Shown: positions 31,169 to 36,395 of the stretch, in pieces
How positions within the stretch are numbered: the stretch's first letter is position 1
How the letters are laid out: each line of letters begins with the position of its first letter
Assembly: GCF_025751585.1 (NCBI RefSeq)
Contig: NZ_JAOWKX010000001.1
Span: forward strand, 496,259 to 560,258
DNA length: 64,000 nt
Reading direction: 5' to 3'
Origin: Fluctibacter corallii
GTDB taxonomy: Bacteria > Pseudomonadota > Gammaproteobacteria > Enterobacterales > Alteromonadaceae
Notes under the pieces: model-generated
Told to the model about the DNA's origin: nothing
What the model saw: only the letters and a program-made list of their open reading frames with translations
Database searches by the model: none
Program-made: the position numbers and the translations under genes

Positions 31169-31263
31169 GCTATTAATATCGGTGAGAAAATCAATAAAAT
31201 TACTCCCGAATTATTTACATTTGCCTATAGTTAAGTTTGCGCTGGATTTTTGGAACACACTCT

Positions 31264-31722
31264 ATGCATAATTTTTCTGATGTACGCGAATTGCTTCACC
31301 ACAATCAACGTTTTCACGATCGCGCCAGTTTGTATTACCGCGAGCTGGCAAGTAAAGTGTCTGACGAACGCGTGAGAATGCTATTAGACACTCTCAGTAC
31401 GCATGAAGTGATACTTTCGAATGAATTAAAGCGCTATGTAGAGCAAGCCCCAGACGCCATTTTGAATACCTACTACCAGTTTGATCATGAATACGACGTT
31501 AATGAGCTGTTTGCCATTGCTTCAGCCCCTCACGAATGCAACGTCAATGATATTGAGCAGCTTGCCACACGATTAGATGATTATTTACAAACGCTATACA
31601 GCAAAATGGCACAAGGCGTAGACTCTGAAAATGTGAGAGAAGTATTCGAAAATCTCTCAAACCATATGCAAGAGGAGAAGAAGAAGCTCTCTACTGACTT
31701 ATACTCCATGCTTGATATTTAG
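31264..31722 (+). CDS. Ferritin-like helical-bundle protein, function uncertain
   Basis: A 152-residue protein that is almost entirely helical. The spacing of acidic and His residues (HHNQRFHDRASLYYRELA, LSTHEVILSNELKRYV, NHMQEEKKKLSTDLYSML) suggests a four-helix, ferritin- or rubrerythrin-like bundle. A full set of di-iron ligands is not certain, so it may not bind metal. ATG 31264 is preferred over an in-frame TTG at 31237. It stands alone, with no obvious operon partner. Confidence 0.6.
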   Translation: MHNFSDVRELLHHNQRFHDRASLYYRELASKVSDERVRMLLDTLSTHEVILSNELKRYVEQAPDAILNTYYQFDHEYDVNELFAIASAPHECNVNDIEQLATRLDDYLQTLYSKMAQGVDSENVREVFENLSNHMQEEKKKLSTDLYSMLDI

Positions 31723-31956
31723 CTTTAAGTCGGCTTAAAACCAACATCACTTAACTCAACACCAAGAAAAATTGGTGAATACCTATGATTGGTAAAAACC
31801 ATTGCCAATGCTGCAAATTTTCTGATAGGTTTGACATCCCCGTAATATCGCCTTTGCAACAAGCTCGCTCAGTGGCAAACATTATCTGATAGGTATGCCG
31901 TGATGCTTGCCGTGGCATTAAAAAATCAAATACGGGATCAACGAAGGAAAAAACAG

Positions 31957-34050
31957 ATGATCAAATTCAGCAACGTTGCGATTGCGGTAATTACTGCAAC
32001 TTCGCTCAGTTTACCTGCTGTTTCGGCCACCAAGGACGGCAGCAACAAAGTAGGTAAACCTATTATATCTTCTAAAATTGTTGGTGGTGAAGAAGCCACA
32101 CAAGGCGACTACCCTTGGATGACTGCCCTCGTGACCGTCTCAACCGAAGTCGATACCACTCTCACCGTTGGAACTGATATTATCGGTAGTAATGCATTTA
32201 GTAATGGTGTGTCTGGCGACGCAACAGCAGAAATTGCTAGCTGTGGCCTAGGTGGAGAAGTCTGTACAGAAGTACAAGACAAAATATGCTTAATTGAGCG
32301 TGGTGAATTTAACTTTTCTACTAAAGCGCAGAATTGTGAAGAAGGCGGCGGTATAGGCGCAATCATTTATAATAATGAATCTGGCCCGTTGAGCAGTGGC
32401 ACACTAGGTGACGATTTTGCAGGCACCATTCCTGTTATTGGTATTTCTCAAGAAGATGGGCAGGCACTGTTAGATCGGGTAGGCGAGATAGCAAGCATTA
32501 GCGTCGCTGCAACAGAAAACCTTGTTCAAGATTCCAGCTGTGGTGCATCTTACCTAGGAAATGGTTGGGTACTTACCGCTTCTCATTGTGTCGACTCGGA
32601 AGCCTCAGCCTCACTTAAAGTTAACATTGGTGAATATGATCTAAGAGATGGCGCTGAAAATGCGGTAGATATTGAACGCATCTATTTACACCCAGATTAT
32701 AACGACTCAACATTGGATTCTGATATTGCTTTACTAAAGCTTACGCAAAATGTTGAAGCAGCAACGGTTACAGTAGCGAACAAAACACAAACAGAATCTT
32801 TTGAAAATGCTGCGTCGCTTACAACTGCTATTGGTTGGGGTGGTCGCACAGGCTATGAGCCAGGAGAAGGGCCTACATCAGATTTCCCCAGCATTTTACA
32901 TCAAGTTAATACAAACCTAATGACCAACGAAGTGTGCGCACAAACATTAGCCACATCATATGGTGAAGAAGATCCTGCTTTAGCAGGCATCACCGAACGT
33001 ATGATTTGTGCTGATGTTCCCGACGGCGGGAAAGCTACCTGTCAAGGAGACAGCGGCGGCCCACTGCTCGTTCAGGAAGGAAATGAATGGATTCAAGTAG
33101 GTATAACTAGCTGGGGAAGTGGTTGTGCAGCGAAAGGCTACCCGAGTGTATACGCTCGTATATCTGCCTTTGAAGATTGGCGTCTCGCCACCATGACAGG
33201 TATCACTCTGCTCAACGCAAAAACGTTCCCGACAATTCGTGTTGGACAAAGCACAACGCAAACATTGACCTTAATTAACAACTCGAATTCAGCACAAACT
33301 ATCGACCTGACTACATCAGGTACAACTGATATCGTGTTAAATAGTGCTGCATGTCAGACCATAGAAGCAAACGCGTCGTGTGATGTCACTGCGACCTATA
33401 CTCCAACTCAAGCTGAAGAGGTGTCTCTAGACATTACCATCACTGCTGGTGATACCAGTGTGAAAACGTATGGTGCAAGCGTAAATGGTCGTGCGCTGAT
33501 TGAAGCAACCGACGTACAAACTGCCTTTGCCTCTCTTGGCACTACTGCCTCTTGGTACACAGGTGGGAACAATGCCTGGATGGTTAACACCGAAGGTCAT
33601 GTAGAAAGCGGTGATATCAATGATAGCCAATATGCTTTGCTTGAAACCACGATTACAGAAACTGGTACGCTAACGTTCGAATGGTTTGTTTCTTCAGAAG
33701 CGAATGAGGACGACCCAGAAGCACCATACGACGCGCTATATTTAGTCGTGAATGGTCAGTTGATTGACTTTATCTCTGGTGAAGTTCCTTTCACTGAGAA
33801 AAGCGTAGACCTCACAGAAGAAACGAATCTTGTGCAATGGATATACGAAAAAGACGGGTCTACCAGTGCATTTGAAGACAAAGGCGCTTTACGCAATGTA
33901 TCTTTTGCCTCTGATACACCAGTCACTCCGCCACCAGTTGAACCACCGCCACCGGTTGAGCCTCCTCAACCTAGAAGCTCTGGCGGCTCGTTTGGTATCT
34001 CTGCACTATTGCTTCTACCTTTATTGTGGATGCGCAGACGCTTCAAATAA
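31957..34050 (+). CDS. Secreted S1-family serine protease with inserted PA-like domain and GlyGly-CTERM
   Basis: A 697-residue secreted protease. The start ATG 31957 follows AAGGAA. Signal peptide is about 1-24. A propeptide ends before IVGG at about residue 41. Residues about 62-189 hold a PA-like domain (ICLIERGEFNFSTKA, GAIIYNNESGPL, IPVIGISQEDG), inserted between the new N-terminus and the CGASYLGNGWVLTASHC block. The triad is His210, Asp256 and Ser366 (GDSGGP). The S1-pocket position 189 is Ala (KATCQGDSGG), so trypsin specificity is doubtful. A beta-sandwich follows (about 410-515), then a lectin- or jelly-roll-like domain (about 525-650), a PPPVEPP linker, and a GlyGly-CTERM tail (SSGGSFGISALLLLPLLWMR). 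Export is probably by type II secretion. A close paralogue follows. Confidence 0.93.
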   Translation: MIKFSNVAIAVITATSLSLPAVSATKDGSNKVGKPIISSKIVGGEEATQGDYPWMTALVTVSTEVDTTLTVGTDIIGSNAFSNGVSGDATAEIASCGLGGEVCTEVQDKICLIERGEFNFSTKAQNCEEGGGIGAIIYNNESGPLSSGTLGDDFAGTIPVIGISQEDGQALLDRVGEIASISVAATENLVQDSSCGASYLGNGWVLTASHCVDSEASASLKVNIGEYDLRDGAENAVDIERIYLHPDYNDSTLDSDIALLKLTQNVEAATVTVANKTQTESFENAASLTTAIGWGGRTGYEPGEGPTSDFPSILHQVNTNLMTNEVCAQTLATSYGEEDPALAGITERMICADVPDGGKATCQGDSGGPLLVQEGNEWIQVGITSWGSGCAAKGYPSVYARISAFEDWRLATMTGITLLNAKTFPTIRVGQSTTQTLTLINNSNSAQTIDLTTSGTTDIVLNSAACQTIEANASCDVTATYTPTQAEEVSLDITITAGDTSVKTYGASVNGRALIEATDVQTAFASLGTTASWYTGGNNAWMVNTEGHVESGDINDSQYALLETTITETGTLTFEWFVSSEANEDDPEAPYDALYLVVNGQLIDFISGEVPFTEKSVDLTEETNLVQWIYEKDGSTSAFEDKGALRNVSFASDTPVTPPPVEPPPPVEPPQPRSSGGSFGISALLLLPLLWMRRRFK

Positions 34051-34065
34051 AAAACAATCGTTATC

Positions 34066-34089
34066 AAGCCCGGTTATCCGGGCTTTTTT
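34066..34089 (+). terminator. Intrinsic terminator between the two protease genes
   Basis: AAGCCCGG (34066-34073) and CCGGGCTT (34078-34085) form the stem with a TTAT loop, followed by a T run. The two proteases are therefore separate transcripts. Confidence 0.92.
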
Positions 34090-34262
34090 ATTCGCTTTGC
34101 TCTCATATTAATTGACTCACTGCTCAATACATATTGATTCAACATCCCCCCAGATATCCACTAAACTTAATGTGGGTAATTTACGTAAAAAAATAAATTA
34201 TTTCGCTTAACTCCGCTGGATTATCACATTGGCAAAGCCTCAACAGGCTACAGGTAAACGAT

Positions 34263-36395
34263 ATGAGCAAGTTTAGTAAAATCGCCGTGGCAGTTGCTAC
34301 AGCATTGGCAACACAGTTTTCTCTCACTTTCACAACCAGTGCGGCAGCTGTCAATAAACCATCCGTTACGCCAAAAATTGTTGGAGGTGAAGAAGCACAG
34401 AACGGTGAATTTCCCTGGATGAGTGCGCTATATGAAGTCTCTAACAATAGTACATCGCAATTGCGTGTCGCCGGCGTTGAAATAAATAGCTCAGGTTTTC
34501 GCGAAAGTCCGTTTGCAGACGTAACAGGACAATTAGTCAACTGTGGACAGGGACAATCACTGTGTGAAGGCGTTCTCAACCAGGTTTGCTTAATCGAGCG
34601 AGGCGACAATACATTTTTGGATAAAGCGTTAACGTGCGAAGCCTCTGGAGGAATAGGTGCGATAATCTATAACAATGAAGCAGGTGACATAGAAGCTGGC
34701 ACACTGACAAGCGACTATTATGGCACGATCCCTGTTGTATCAGTTTCACAAGAAACTGGGCAGTCTCTATTAACGCAAATAGGTAGTGATGTCTCACTCT
34801 CTGTCAGTATTTCAGACTTGAGCACTGAAACCTTTACCTGCGGTGCAACCTACTTAGGAGAGGGTTGGTTACTGACGGCTGCGCATTGTATACCAATTGA
34901 CGCGACGCAACGGCTCAAAGTAGGCATTGGTGATTATGAAGTATTTGTAGGTACTCCCTCTAACATTACCGCTGTCTACATTCATCCAGATTTTAACGAG
35001 GTAACCTTTGACAGCGACTATGCGCTACTTCGAGCCAATGGCGGCGTTAGTGAAACTATTCGCCTCGCTGACATTGCGACCACGGATGCATTTGTGAATG
35101 CCAATAGTGTAACCACGGCAATTGGTTGGGGAGGACGCATTGGTTACGAACCCGGCGAAGGACCTACAGGGGATTTTCCTGCTCGACTTCATAAAGTTGA
35201 TACAAACTTACTCACGAATAGCCAATGCATTCAAACTTATGCGTCATCAAACGGCACCCCTGTCGAAAATACTTTCATTACAGACAACATGGTATGTGCT
35301 GATGTACCAGAGGGAGGGAAAGCGACCTGTCAGGGCGACAGCGGCGGGCCAATTCTCGTCAACGATGGTTCGGAGTGGATTCAAATTGGTATAACAAGTT
35401 TTGGGCAAGGATGCGGGGCACAAGGATACCCAAGTGTCTATACTCGATTGGCGCGATTCGATAATTGGCGAGACATCACCATGAATGGCGTGATTTTTAA
35501 TCCAAGCTTTTCAGTTCCTACTCTTACTGTTGGAGAAACGTTAGCACTCCCTATCGTCGCCCATAATAATTTTAATGACGCCTTAAATATCGGTATACAA
35601 CAGACAAACATTCCATTTGCATCTATTGAAAATGGACAATGTAACAACGTACCGAGTGGAGGTGTGTGTGAAAGGATAGTCACCTTTGCGCCATCAGAAG
35701 CCGGAACCTTTACAGCCAATTTTGACATTACCTCTGATGAAAACCAATTTCAAAAAAGAGATTTAACCCGAAACATTATCGTTCTCGATAAAAGTGAGGC
35801 TTTTCAAGCTCTGTTTACCGTGGATGATGACGAGAACATCGTTTGGTCGACGGGAGGCAACGCCGACTGGCAAATTGCGAACGGTACAAATGCACAAAGT
35901 GGCGATATTAATGATTCTCAAGCAAGCTATTTAAAAGCGACTGTATATGGTAAAGGCGTACTCACTTTTGATTGGCGCGTTTCCTCAGAAGTCAGTTCTT
36001 CTCCAGATACGGTCTTTGACGGCTTATATTTGTACGTAAATGACAGGCTACTAGATGTTATTTCTGGCGAAAATGCATTCGCAAAAAAAACGGTTAATCT
36101 TGTAAGTGAAGTAAACCGAGTCGAGTGGGTTTATCGCAAAGATGAATCTGTTTCTAGCGGAAGAGACAATGCCGACATAAAAAACGTAAATCTACGGCTG
36201 ATAACGAAAACGCCACCGCCTTCACCCAGCCCTGCGCCGAGTCCAACTCCTAGCCCAGCTCCGAGTCCATCACCCAGTCCTACGCCAAGCCCAAGCCCAG
36301 CGCCAACTCCAGCTCCGAGCTCTGGCGGAGGCTCAACAGGCGTGTTGATGGCTGGCTTATTACCTATTTTGTGGTATCGGCGCAGACCAAAATAG
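34263..36395 (+). CDS. Second S1-family serine protease with inserted PA-like domain and GlyGly-CTERM
   Basis: A 710-residue paralogue of the preceding protease with the same architecture. Signal peptide is about 1-28 and IVGG at 39-42. A PA-like insertion occupies about 60-188 (CLIERGDNTFLDKALTC, GAIIYNNEAGDI, IPVVSVSQETG). The triad is His208, Asp252 and Ser360, with Ala354 at the S1 189-equivalent. A beta-sandwich and a jelly-roll-like domain (WRVSSEVSSSPDTVFDGLYLY) come next. A long Pro-Ser linker (PSPAPSPTPSPAPSPSP) precedes the GlyGly-CTERM tail. It should be anchored or released by rhombosortase after type II secretion, but neither system is in this window. The sequence has diverged enough from its neighbour to be an old duplication. 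Confidence 0.93.
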   Translation: MSKFSKIAVAVATALATQFSLTFTTSAAAVNKPSVTPKIVGGEEAQNGEFPWMSALYEVSNNSTSQLRVAGVEINSSGFRESPFADVTGQLVNCGQGQSLCEGVLNQVCLIERGDNTFLDKALTCEASGGIGAIIYNNEAGDIEAGTLTSDYYGTIPVVSVSQETGQSLLTQIGSDVSLSVSISDLSTETFTCGATYLGEGWLLTAAHCIPIDATQRLKVGIGDYEVFVGTPSNITAVYIHPDFNEVTFDSDYALLRANGGVSETIRLADIATTDAFVNANSVTTAIGWGGRIGYEPGEGPTGDFPARLHKVDTNLLTNSQCIQTYASSNGTPVENTFITDNMVCADVPEGGKATCQGDSGGPILVNDGSEWIQIGITSFGQGCGAQGYPSVYTRLARFDNWRDITMNGVIFNPSFSVPTLTVGETLALPIVAHNNFNDALNIGIQQTNIPFASIENGQCNNVPSGGVCERIVTFAPSEAGTFTANFDITSDENQFQKRDLTRNIIVLDKSEAFQALFTVDDDENIVWSTGGNADWQIANGTNAQSGDINDSQASYLKATVYGKGVLTFDWRVSSEVSSSPDTVFDGLYLYVNDRLLDVISGENAFAKKTVNLVSEVNRVEWVYRKDESVSSGRDNADIKNVNLRLITKTPPPSPSPAPSPTPSPAPSPSPSPTPSPSPAPTPAPSSGGGSTGVLMAGLLPILWYRRRPK

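Follow-up and report, generated by a model that had tools for sequence, protein, structure and literature searches.

A PA domain in the 37-loop of two tandem S1A proteases of Fluctibacter corallii

The locus and the scaffold of its two proteases

The window, a stretch of 64,000 nucleotides from the Fluctibacter corallii genome, contains two complete tandem open reading frames on the + strand, at 31957-34050 (697 amino acids) and 34263-36395 (710 amino acids). For the first gene, the mechanical ORF call opens at an in-frame GTG at 31900, upstream of the start at 31957. Both products are built on a VesB/VesC-type S1A scaffold and carry GlyGly-CTERM tails. The features are as follows.

31957-34050, + strand: protease 1 (P0001), 697 amino acids, with signal peptide, propeptide, S1A protease with PA insert, Ig-like domain, C-terminal domain, Pro-rich linker and GlyGly-CTERM tail
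31957-32028, + strand: putative signal peptide of protease 1, residues 1-24, assigned by eye (AVSA)
32029-32076, + strand: propeptide of protease 1, residues 25-40, its last residue being Lys40 before Ile41, from the sequence and the alignment with the VesC N-terminus
32077-32136, + strand: IVGG and first S1 strand of protease 1, residues 41-60, from the VesC alignment and the AF2 model
32137-32535, + strand: inserted segment in the 37-loop of protease 1, residues 61-193, with the Pfam PA match at 32242-32469
32536-33192, + strand: remaining S1 domain of protease 1, residues 194-412, from Pfam and alignment
32584-32586, 32722-32724 and 33052-33054, + strand: triad codons of protease 1 (His210, Asp256 and Ser366, respectively)
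33034-33036 and 33145-33147, + strand: pocket codons of protease 1 (Ala360, position 189, and Ser397, position 226, respectively)
33196-33456, + strand: candidate Ig-like domain of protease 1 (choice-of-anchor D or VesB-type Ig), scoring below both curated cut-offs, with a Foldseek match to VesC
33979-34047, + strand: GlyGly-CTERM sorting signal of protease 1, 20.4 bits (cut-off 15.5)
34066-34085, + strand: terminator-like hairpin between the two genes, 8 pairs, 6 of them G-C, with a T-rich tail
34263-36395, + strand: protease 2 (P0002), tandem paralogue, 710 amino acids, architecture as in protease 1
34437-34835, + strand: inserted segment of protease 2, residues 59-191, with the Pfam PA match at 34521-34769
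34836-35477, + strand: remaining S1 domain of protease 2, residues 192-405, with His208, Asp252 and Ser360, Ala at position 189 and Ser at position 226
36324-36386, + strand: GlyGly-CTERM sorting signal of protease 2, 18.5 bits (same cut-off)

Terminator-like sites are not enriched in the region (4, compared to a mean of 4.4 in shuffles). The genome that carries the two sorting signals also encodes a rhombosortase (TIGR03902, 162 bits, cut-off 84) and the type II secretin GspD (TIGR02517, 538 bits). The Ig-like model PF22544 gave 23.2 bits for protease 1, below its cut-off of 25.5, and was not listed for protease 2, and choice-of-anchor D gave 33.1 and 22.4 bits for proteases 1 and 2, respectively, below its cut-off of 45. 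The S1A and GlyGly-CTERM parts, and probably the Ig-like one, are shared with VesC and VesB of Vibrio cholerae (6bqm and 4lk4), S1A enzymes that depend on the type II secretion system (T2SS) and rhombosortase. VesC is the best match of protease 1 in both sequence and fold, with an alignment that extends over the C-terminal domain, and it is listed among the GlyGly-CTERM proteins in the available part of PMC6219818. An earlier sequence-only reading of this DNA was silent on the GlyGly-CTERM and rhombosortase context, on the VesB/VesC scaffold and on the missing Asp189 described below.

The insert is a PA domain at the tip of a hairpin

The sequence-only reading had placed about 125 residues resembling a PA domain between IVGG and the His57 block of both proteases, and the Pfam matches and the alignment with VesC bear out both the segment and its coordinates. 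The Pfam PA model (PF02225, gathering score 23.9) matches residues 96-171 of protease 1 with 60.0 bits and residues 87-169 of protease 2 with 50.4 bits. These matches lie between IVGG (I41 and I39, respectively) and the His57 block (CGASYLG...TASHC and CGATYLG...TAAHC, respectively), and their scores rule out an ordinary expansion of an S1 loop. The Trypsin model (PF00089, gathering score 20.6) scores 166 and 151.5 bits, with matches that begin only at model positions 24 and 16, respectively; the insert-free homologues L116 and L137, taken as controls, cover it end to end (1-220). When protease 1 is aligned with VesC (phmmer), its residues 37-60 correspond to VesC 7-30 and the alignment resumes at residue 194, corresponding to VesC 37, so that a stretch of 133 residues replaces 6 residues of VesC. 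His210, Asp256 and Ser366 are retained in protease 1, as are the cysteines at the C42, C58, C191 and C220 positions. Both proteases have the marks of S1A enzymes, namely, the His57-Asp102-Ser195 triad, GDSGGP with Asp194 and an IVGG-type N-terminus.

We had further been led to expect a chymotrypsin fold split by the insert and a new N-terminus forced to reach across it, and here the structure models point the other way. The AF2 models of proteases 1 and 2 have pLDDT values of 90.1 and 84.6 and pTM values of 0.72 and 0.71, respectively; protease 1 was modelled as the mature form, with the start set at Ile41 by choice, and protease 2 with its propeptide. According to DSSP, in both models the first S1 strand extends into the insert, and the strand that leads back extends into C42 (strands 55-71 and 178-201 in the P0001 model). 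The insert lies in the 37-loop, a hairpin linking strands one and two of the chymotrypsin fold, so the fold itself is unbroken and the new N-terminus has no need to span the insert. Protease 1 has this fold as judged by VIA-align, where the 50 rows shown gave Z scores of 33.2-34.6 and rmsd values of 1.5-2.0 Å over 217-235 residues. For chains with chymotrypsin numbering, the aligned range begins with model residue 1 on chain residue 16, as in solved S1 proteases. The list also includes the zymogen 8s0l with an equally good fit, and the Ile41 start was chosen, so the fit does not amount to proof that the N-terminus docks. The best Foldseek matches of protease 1 were VesC (E value of 3.0e-35; 479 columns, rmsd of 8.2) and VesB (2.7e-21). 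All Foldseek and VIA-align rows shown were S1 chains, with no solved PA fold among them.

Distribution, PA relatives and the S1 pocket

The layout is confirmed as real and is also found in related bacteria. A survey of genomes found full-length matches in 42 or more of the 295 genomes from this family and, thinly spread, elsewhere in the Gammaproteobacteria; these counts, like those of a contig scan, are lower bounds. Its recurrence in further genomes excludes both chance and an assembly artefact. Among 31 family members, Pfam at E<=0.001 found Trypsin in all 31 and PA in 27, and the remaining four (L061, L078, L095 and L096) scored 56-93 bits against an insert profile that has L061 and L078 among its own rows. 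All 31 members have the four PA cysteines, the GG motif, His57, Asp102 and Ser195 without variation; L024 is the one member that lacks IVGG. L185 (G732), a possible case from outside the class, has no PA domain as judged by eye. Viral contigs yielded no relative, and in plasmid and phage records the matches were limited to the PA parts of peptidases of families S8, M28 and M36.

The S1-core tree places an Alteromonadales-type PA clade (20 rows) apart from the other PA rows (one-clade AU test, p = 0.0462; bootstrap unsettled). The PA tree, poorly resolved with its 117 columns, is compatible with one clade (p = 0.488). There may have been one insertion or two, as the S1-core tree points to two and the PA tree accepts a single clade.

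The closest PA domains that we found have four cysteines and are themselves insertions, in S8 subtilases. Twelve S8 PA domains score 104-126 bits against the insert profile, and four cysteines, the number in the S1 inserts, are present in 11 of them and in 12 of 35 from S8 enzymes. Against solved structures, the profile found the PA domains of M28 and S8 enzymes, the transferrin receptor and RNF128, with no S1 chain among its 34 matches. The rhombosortase-dependent M36 metallopeptidases (NF038111) contain a related PA segment as well (62 bits, best stretch at residues 103-194, far below the whole-protein cut-off); by name they share the sorting route but, unlike the S1 pair, they have a metallopeptidase catalytic domain. 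A PA domain inserted in the catalytic domain is a well-known layout in S8 subtilases. The S8 subtilase P57 of Photobacterium sp. A5-7 resembles our pair in having its PA domain inside a serine protease catalytic domain, but the catalytic fold is unrelated to S1, and hence the insertion site is another one. Our literature searches found no published description of a PA domain inserted in the S1 fold among the matches listed, so the layout does not appear there as an already described S1 subfamily; the 37-loop insertion is a variant for which we found no description, whereas a PA domain inside a catalytic domain is in itself known. A Caldilinea brachyurin-T was considered in this respect, but its C-terminal Trypsin domain is absent in the S8 enzyme studied, and the accessible part of PMC8780967 contains nothing that makes a case for PA in S1.

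Asp189, which trypsin-specific S1A enzymes (Arg/Lys at P1) have at the bottom of the S1 pocket, is absent from both window proteases, which have Ala189 and Ser226; VesC has Asp in the alignment. For a wider comparison of pockets, we used 104 rows minus 22 rows of Streptomyces/Kitasatospora type (Met189, no PA domain). Asp189 is absent in 29 of the 32 PA-bearing core rows compared to 5 of the 50 PA-less rows, and it is kept in four PA members (L078, L095, L096 and L196). Only 1 to 4 independent contrasts are available, too few for a test, and a coupling between the PA domain and loss of Asp189 is not claimed. Crab collagenase (brachyurin) has an S1 pocket with Gly189 and Asp226, a pair matched by 15/32 PA rows, while the window pair has neither Asp; crab brachyurins are not known to have a PA domain. 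No pattern was seen by eye between the P1 residue at a protein's own activation site and its pocket. Self-activation at Lys-Ile looks unlikely for the window pair, judging from a pocket with Ala189 and Ser226 faced with Lys at P1. Among the five S1 matches in the genome, none was seen with Asp189, and no candidate activator stands out there. VesB is made as a zymogen, cleaved at Arg32-Ile33, and appears to auto-activate (PMC6219818, in part), which the window pair, from its residues, probably cannot do.

Possible roles of the PA domain

We lean, by a small measure, towards reading the pair as secreted VesB/VesC-type S1A proteases in which a PA domain in the 37-loop is an exosite for large substrates and which a different protease activates. 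The 37-loop would have received a PA domain with four cysteines whose closest counterparts are in S8 subtilases from related bacteria. The proteins would be exported by Sec and cross the outer membrane through the T2SS, and rhombosortase would process the GlyGly-CTERM tail, so that the enzyme remains at the cell surface. A second protease would cleave after the Lys that precedes IVGG, the new Ile16 N-terminus would dock with Asp194 in the ordinary manner, and the PA domain, borne by a long hairpin and probably close to the primed side of the cleft, may bind large protein substrates. Counting against this account, TIGR03501 was matched at E<=0.01 in only 4/31 family members in a single-protein scan.

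The 37-loop borders the catalytic cleft, and both substrate binding and gating by the insert are plausible. At such a site, the PA domain could be a lid or size filter that overhangs the cleft and excludes large substrates, as proposed for subtilases, with an enzyme that prefers peptides. We regard this as unlikely. The PA domain has been described as lid-like above a protease active site (PMC2605481, in part), and deletion of the PA domain of the subtilase AcpII gave more activity on gelatin, casein and collagen, so a PA domain can also restrain. The PA domain of P57, however, binds collagen directly, which favours recruitment over exclusion, and in other subtilases structures or deletions suggest a role in substrate binding (all in the available part of PMC5177683). 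It is more doubtful that the PA domain does no more than stabilise the protein or aid its secretion, as a module with two possible disulfides and contacts with the T2SS or the surface but no role in substrate choice. The invariant cysteines and the related PA segment of the M36 peptidases would fit such a module, but the PA-less VesB/VesC-type proteins L116 and L137 have a tail of this type along with an Ig-like domain, and the PA domain is thus dispensable for the sorting route. The proposal of the sequence-only reading that an insert across the path of the N-terminus delays or controls zymogen activation found no support, and we consider it very improbable. In sequence the insert does lie between IVGG and the remaining catalytic domain, but it sits in a hairpin loop with both ends adjacent, the mature model aligns from residue 1 with residue 16 of solved enzymes, and the protease 2 model with its propeptide has the same strands in and out of the insert.

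A broader reading of the exosite account is speculative and, in our view, unlikely. The 37-loop insertion would have made VesC-type trypsins PA-directed, with S1 pockets relaxed or rebuilt (Ala, Ser or Gly at 189, often with Asp226), targeting by the PA exosite instead of Arg/Lys at P1, and a need for an upstream Lys/Arg-specific activator. If true, this would be a hybrid protease class in a two-step surface cascade that degrades polymeric protein. The family consists of probable surface proteases whose specificity is unreadable from the usual trypsin rule. Findings on the PA domain of subtilases differ between binding in P57 and restraint in AcpII, and a PA domain of this kind in a serine protease of unrelated fold, with PA-less relatives at hand, would allow a clean comparison of what it contributes. 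One genome, G134, holds one PA-bearing and one PA-less S1 protease.

Domain layout and fold of the tandem proteases

The two proteases are encoded by adjacent genes, listed here with two ORFs that precede them:
31957-34050, + strand: protease 1 (P0001), 697 aa
34263-36395, + strand: protease 2 (P0002), 710 aa
30266-31168 and 31237-31722: two upstream ORFs, adjoining a porin-like gene

The tandem products share 45% identity across the full alignment. Both consist, in order, of a signal peptide and a propeptide (both assigned by eye), an S1A domain whose triad is intact, an Ig-like domain (match below curated cut-offs), another beta-rich domain that the models show, a Pro-rich linker and GlyGly-CTERM, a C-terminal sorting signal. 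The latter scored 20.4 bits in protease 1 and 18.5 bits in protease 2 (cut-off, 15.5); it was the only model above cut-off when the pair was scanned with NCBIfam, and genome-wide at E<=0.001 it matched this pair only. A rhombosortase gene (162 bits; cut-off, 84) is present in the genome, as is one for a T2SS secretin (538 bits). Layout, sorting signal and machinery together correspond to the plan of the Vibrio cholerae proteases VesB and VesC. The excerpts consulted describe VesB as a zymogen secreted via the T2SS, cleaved at Arg-Ile apparently by VesB itself and requiring rhombosortase for correct maturation (PMC6219818). Other members inspected by eye have a glycine-rich, hydrophobic and basic tail, and TIGR03501 matched only 4 of 31 members at E<=0.01. 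Protease 2 is the more diverged copy (branch lengths of 0.46 versus 0.13 in one tree and 1.34 versus 0.40 in another), and its Pro/Ser-rich linker is longer. Neither of the two upstream ORFs matched Pfam or NCBIfam at E<=1e-5; downstream lie genes for a GGDEF protein, AhpC and AhpF.

Pfam Trypsin matched with 166 bits (protease 1) and 151.5 bits (protease 2), beginning only at model positions 24 and 16; in two insert-less homologues the model was covered from 1 to 220. N-terminal to this match, Pfam PA scored 60.0 and 50.4 bits, respectively (cut-off, 23.9 bits). When P0001 is aligned with VesC, residues 37-60 correspond to VesC 7-30 and the next block starts at 194 (VesC 37), so that 133 residues stand in P0001 where VesC has 6. 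In standard chymotrypsin numbering this position, between the strand following IVGG and Cys42, is the 37-loop.

AlphaFold2 models were obtained for protease 1 starting at Ile41 (pLDDT 90.1, pTM 0.72) and for protease 2 including the propeptide (pLDDT 84.6, pTM 0.71). In both, the first S1 strand continues unbroken into the insert (P0001 55-71), and a second long strand leaves the insert and runs on as the Cys42 strand (P0001 178-201). Judging from the secondary-structure string, their spacing would be compatible with a single antiparallel ribbon. Foldseek returned VesC (rmsd 8.2, 479 columns) and VesB as top matches. VIA-align gave Z scores of 33.2-34.6 and an rmsd of 1.5-2.0 A over 217-235 residues in the 50 rows shown. 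For chains with chymotrypsin numbering, model residue 1 corresponds to chain residue 16 at the start of the aligned range; since the rows include the zymogen 8s0l, this gives the location of the N-terminus and not its docking. On these models, the S1 fold is not split by the PA insert. The sequence-only reading had the new N-terminus reaching across the insert, which the continuous strands and the alignment of residue 1 with residue 16 do not support.

Distribution and origin of the PA domain

All distribution counts are lower bounds, and the genome samples overlap. Within the same family, full-length matches to the IVGG-PA-His57 profile were found in at least 47 places in at least 42 of 295 genomes and in at least 11 of 52 genera (read from the results table), with two copies in at least 5 genomes. 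They scored 208-249 bits versus 133 or less for the PA-only matches listed, a clear gap. The order sample contained at least 7 of 295 genomes with a full-length match, the class sample at least 7 of 369, as well as a further genome (G565) in which the two parts are split between two contigs, and the phylum sample at least 3 of 398, every one from the window's own family. Among the matches listed in the contig scan, 17 of 60 loci are named carriers (L080-L096), from Aliiglaciecola, Aestuariibacter, Paraglaciecola, Colwellia, Psychrosphaera, a Thiotrichales MAG, a Gammaproteobacteria MAG and Granulosicoccaceae MAGs. The other 43 have partial query coverage, except L123, where both query ends lie within 159 bases, that is, without the insert. 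The window pair and the tandem pair of G1116, G1097 and G1134 fall in separate tree regions, so tandem pairs arose more than once. At the latter loci (L192, L193 and L194), where the duplication is independent, the copies carry Ser versus Gly at position 189.

In a search with the insert profile, PA domains of S8 subtilases (assigned by motif) scored up to 126 bits, and a Pfam scan of ten PA-only relatives identified S8 with PA in all ten. Four cysteines are present in 31 of 31 full inserts (the 32nd, from L053, is cut off and stands outside this count) and in 12 of 35 S8 PA domains, 11 of which rank among the 12 best. With the poorly resolved PA tree, a single clade of S1 inserts was not rejected (p 0.488). 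With the S1-core tree, a single clade of PA carriers was mildly rejected (p 0.0462), and the PA-less row L069 adjoins PA rows. Either a single insertion plus loss or exchange, or two insertions, would account for this history. PA-bearing S1 proteases are a real, coherent subfamily. In the parts of the open-access full text consulted, PA insertion was found for S8 and none inside S1; in the portion consulted, a survey of prokaryotic serine proteases from 2008 names subtilisins alone as carriers of PA inserts, and the terms 'protease-associated' and PF02225 are absent from the GlyGly-CTERM paper.

S1 pocket and possible role of the PA domain

The pocket of the window pair consists of Ala189, Thr190, Gly216 and Ser226. 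Among PA-bearing rows of the S1-core alignment, Asp189 occurs in 3 of 32, and Gly189 with Asp226 in 15 of 32. In the PA-less rows, Asp189 occurs in 45 of 50 and Asp226 in none, after 22 Met189 rows of the Streptomyces/Kitasatospora type had been dropped from the total of 104. Distinct PA-less rows from one of the searches have Asp189 in 27 of 28; a later-found PA-bearing locus (L196) has it also. As there are only 1 to 4 independent contrasts, this pattern is an association that does not establish a causal link. Lys precedes Ile16 in both window proteins. The genome's remaining three S1 matches are DegQ-like, DegS-like and an odd 284-aa protein, in which an Asp189 pocket is absent by eye. At L020, L023, L051 and L077, Gln, Leu, Pro or Phe, not Lys/Arg, precedes the IVGG-type N-terminus. 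The PA-bearing protease of L024 (G273; - strand) retains its triad and Asp194 but has no IVGG at all, prompting the question of what occupies the activation pocket in this protein.

We infer the mechanism as follows. The simplest reading is that the PA domain would be an exosite of a surface protease acting on bulky protein substrates. The 37-loop adjoins the primed subsites and has an exosite role in some S1 proteases. The main rival is that the PA domain would be a lid. According to the excerpts consulted, subtilase PA domains bind or restrict substrates: that of P57 binds collagen, and removal of PA alters the specificity of PrtP and raises the activity of AcpII (PMC5177683).

A small lipoprotein-like family beside S1 proteases

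Directly downstream of VesB-type S1 proteases, PA-bearing or PA-less, we observed a small lipoprotein-like family, encoded by separate ORFs at five loci:
L097, 5131-5499
L137, 5498-5938
L103, 5390-5893
L078, 3357-3770
L093, 5188-5658 (identical sequence in L049)

These five ORFs and the L096 tail matched no Pfam or NCBIfam family above cut-off, and in the window's genome the family gave a single match (E 0.24) containing stops. Among the collected loci, in which 113 S1 ORFs (duplicates counted) are followed by at least 500 bases, 10 ORFs of the family (9 distinct) were found at E<=0.001. The proteins have a lipobox-like Cys (by eye) and a conserved GC...F...R...D-x-C, and could be partners or inhibitors of the S1 protease. 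At L048, L053, L095 and L096 the family is fused as a C-terminal tail behind a GlyGly-CTERM-like segment, making this segment internal.
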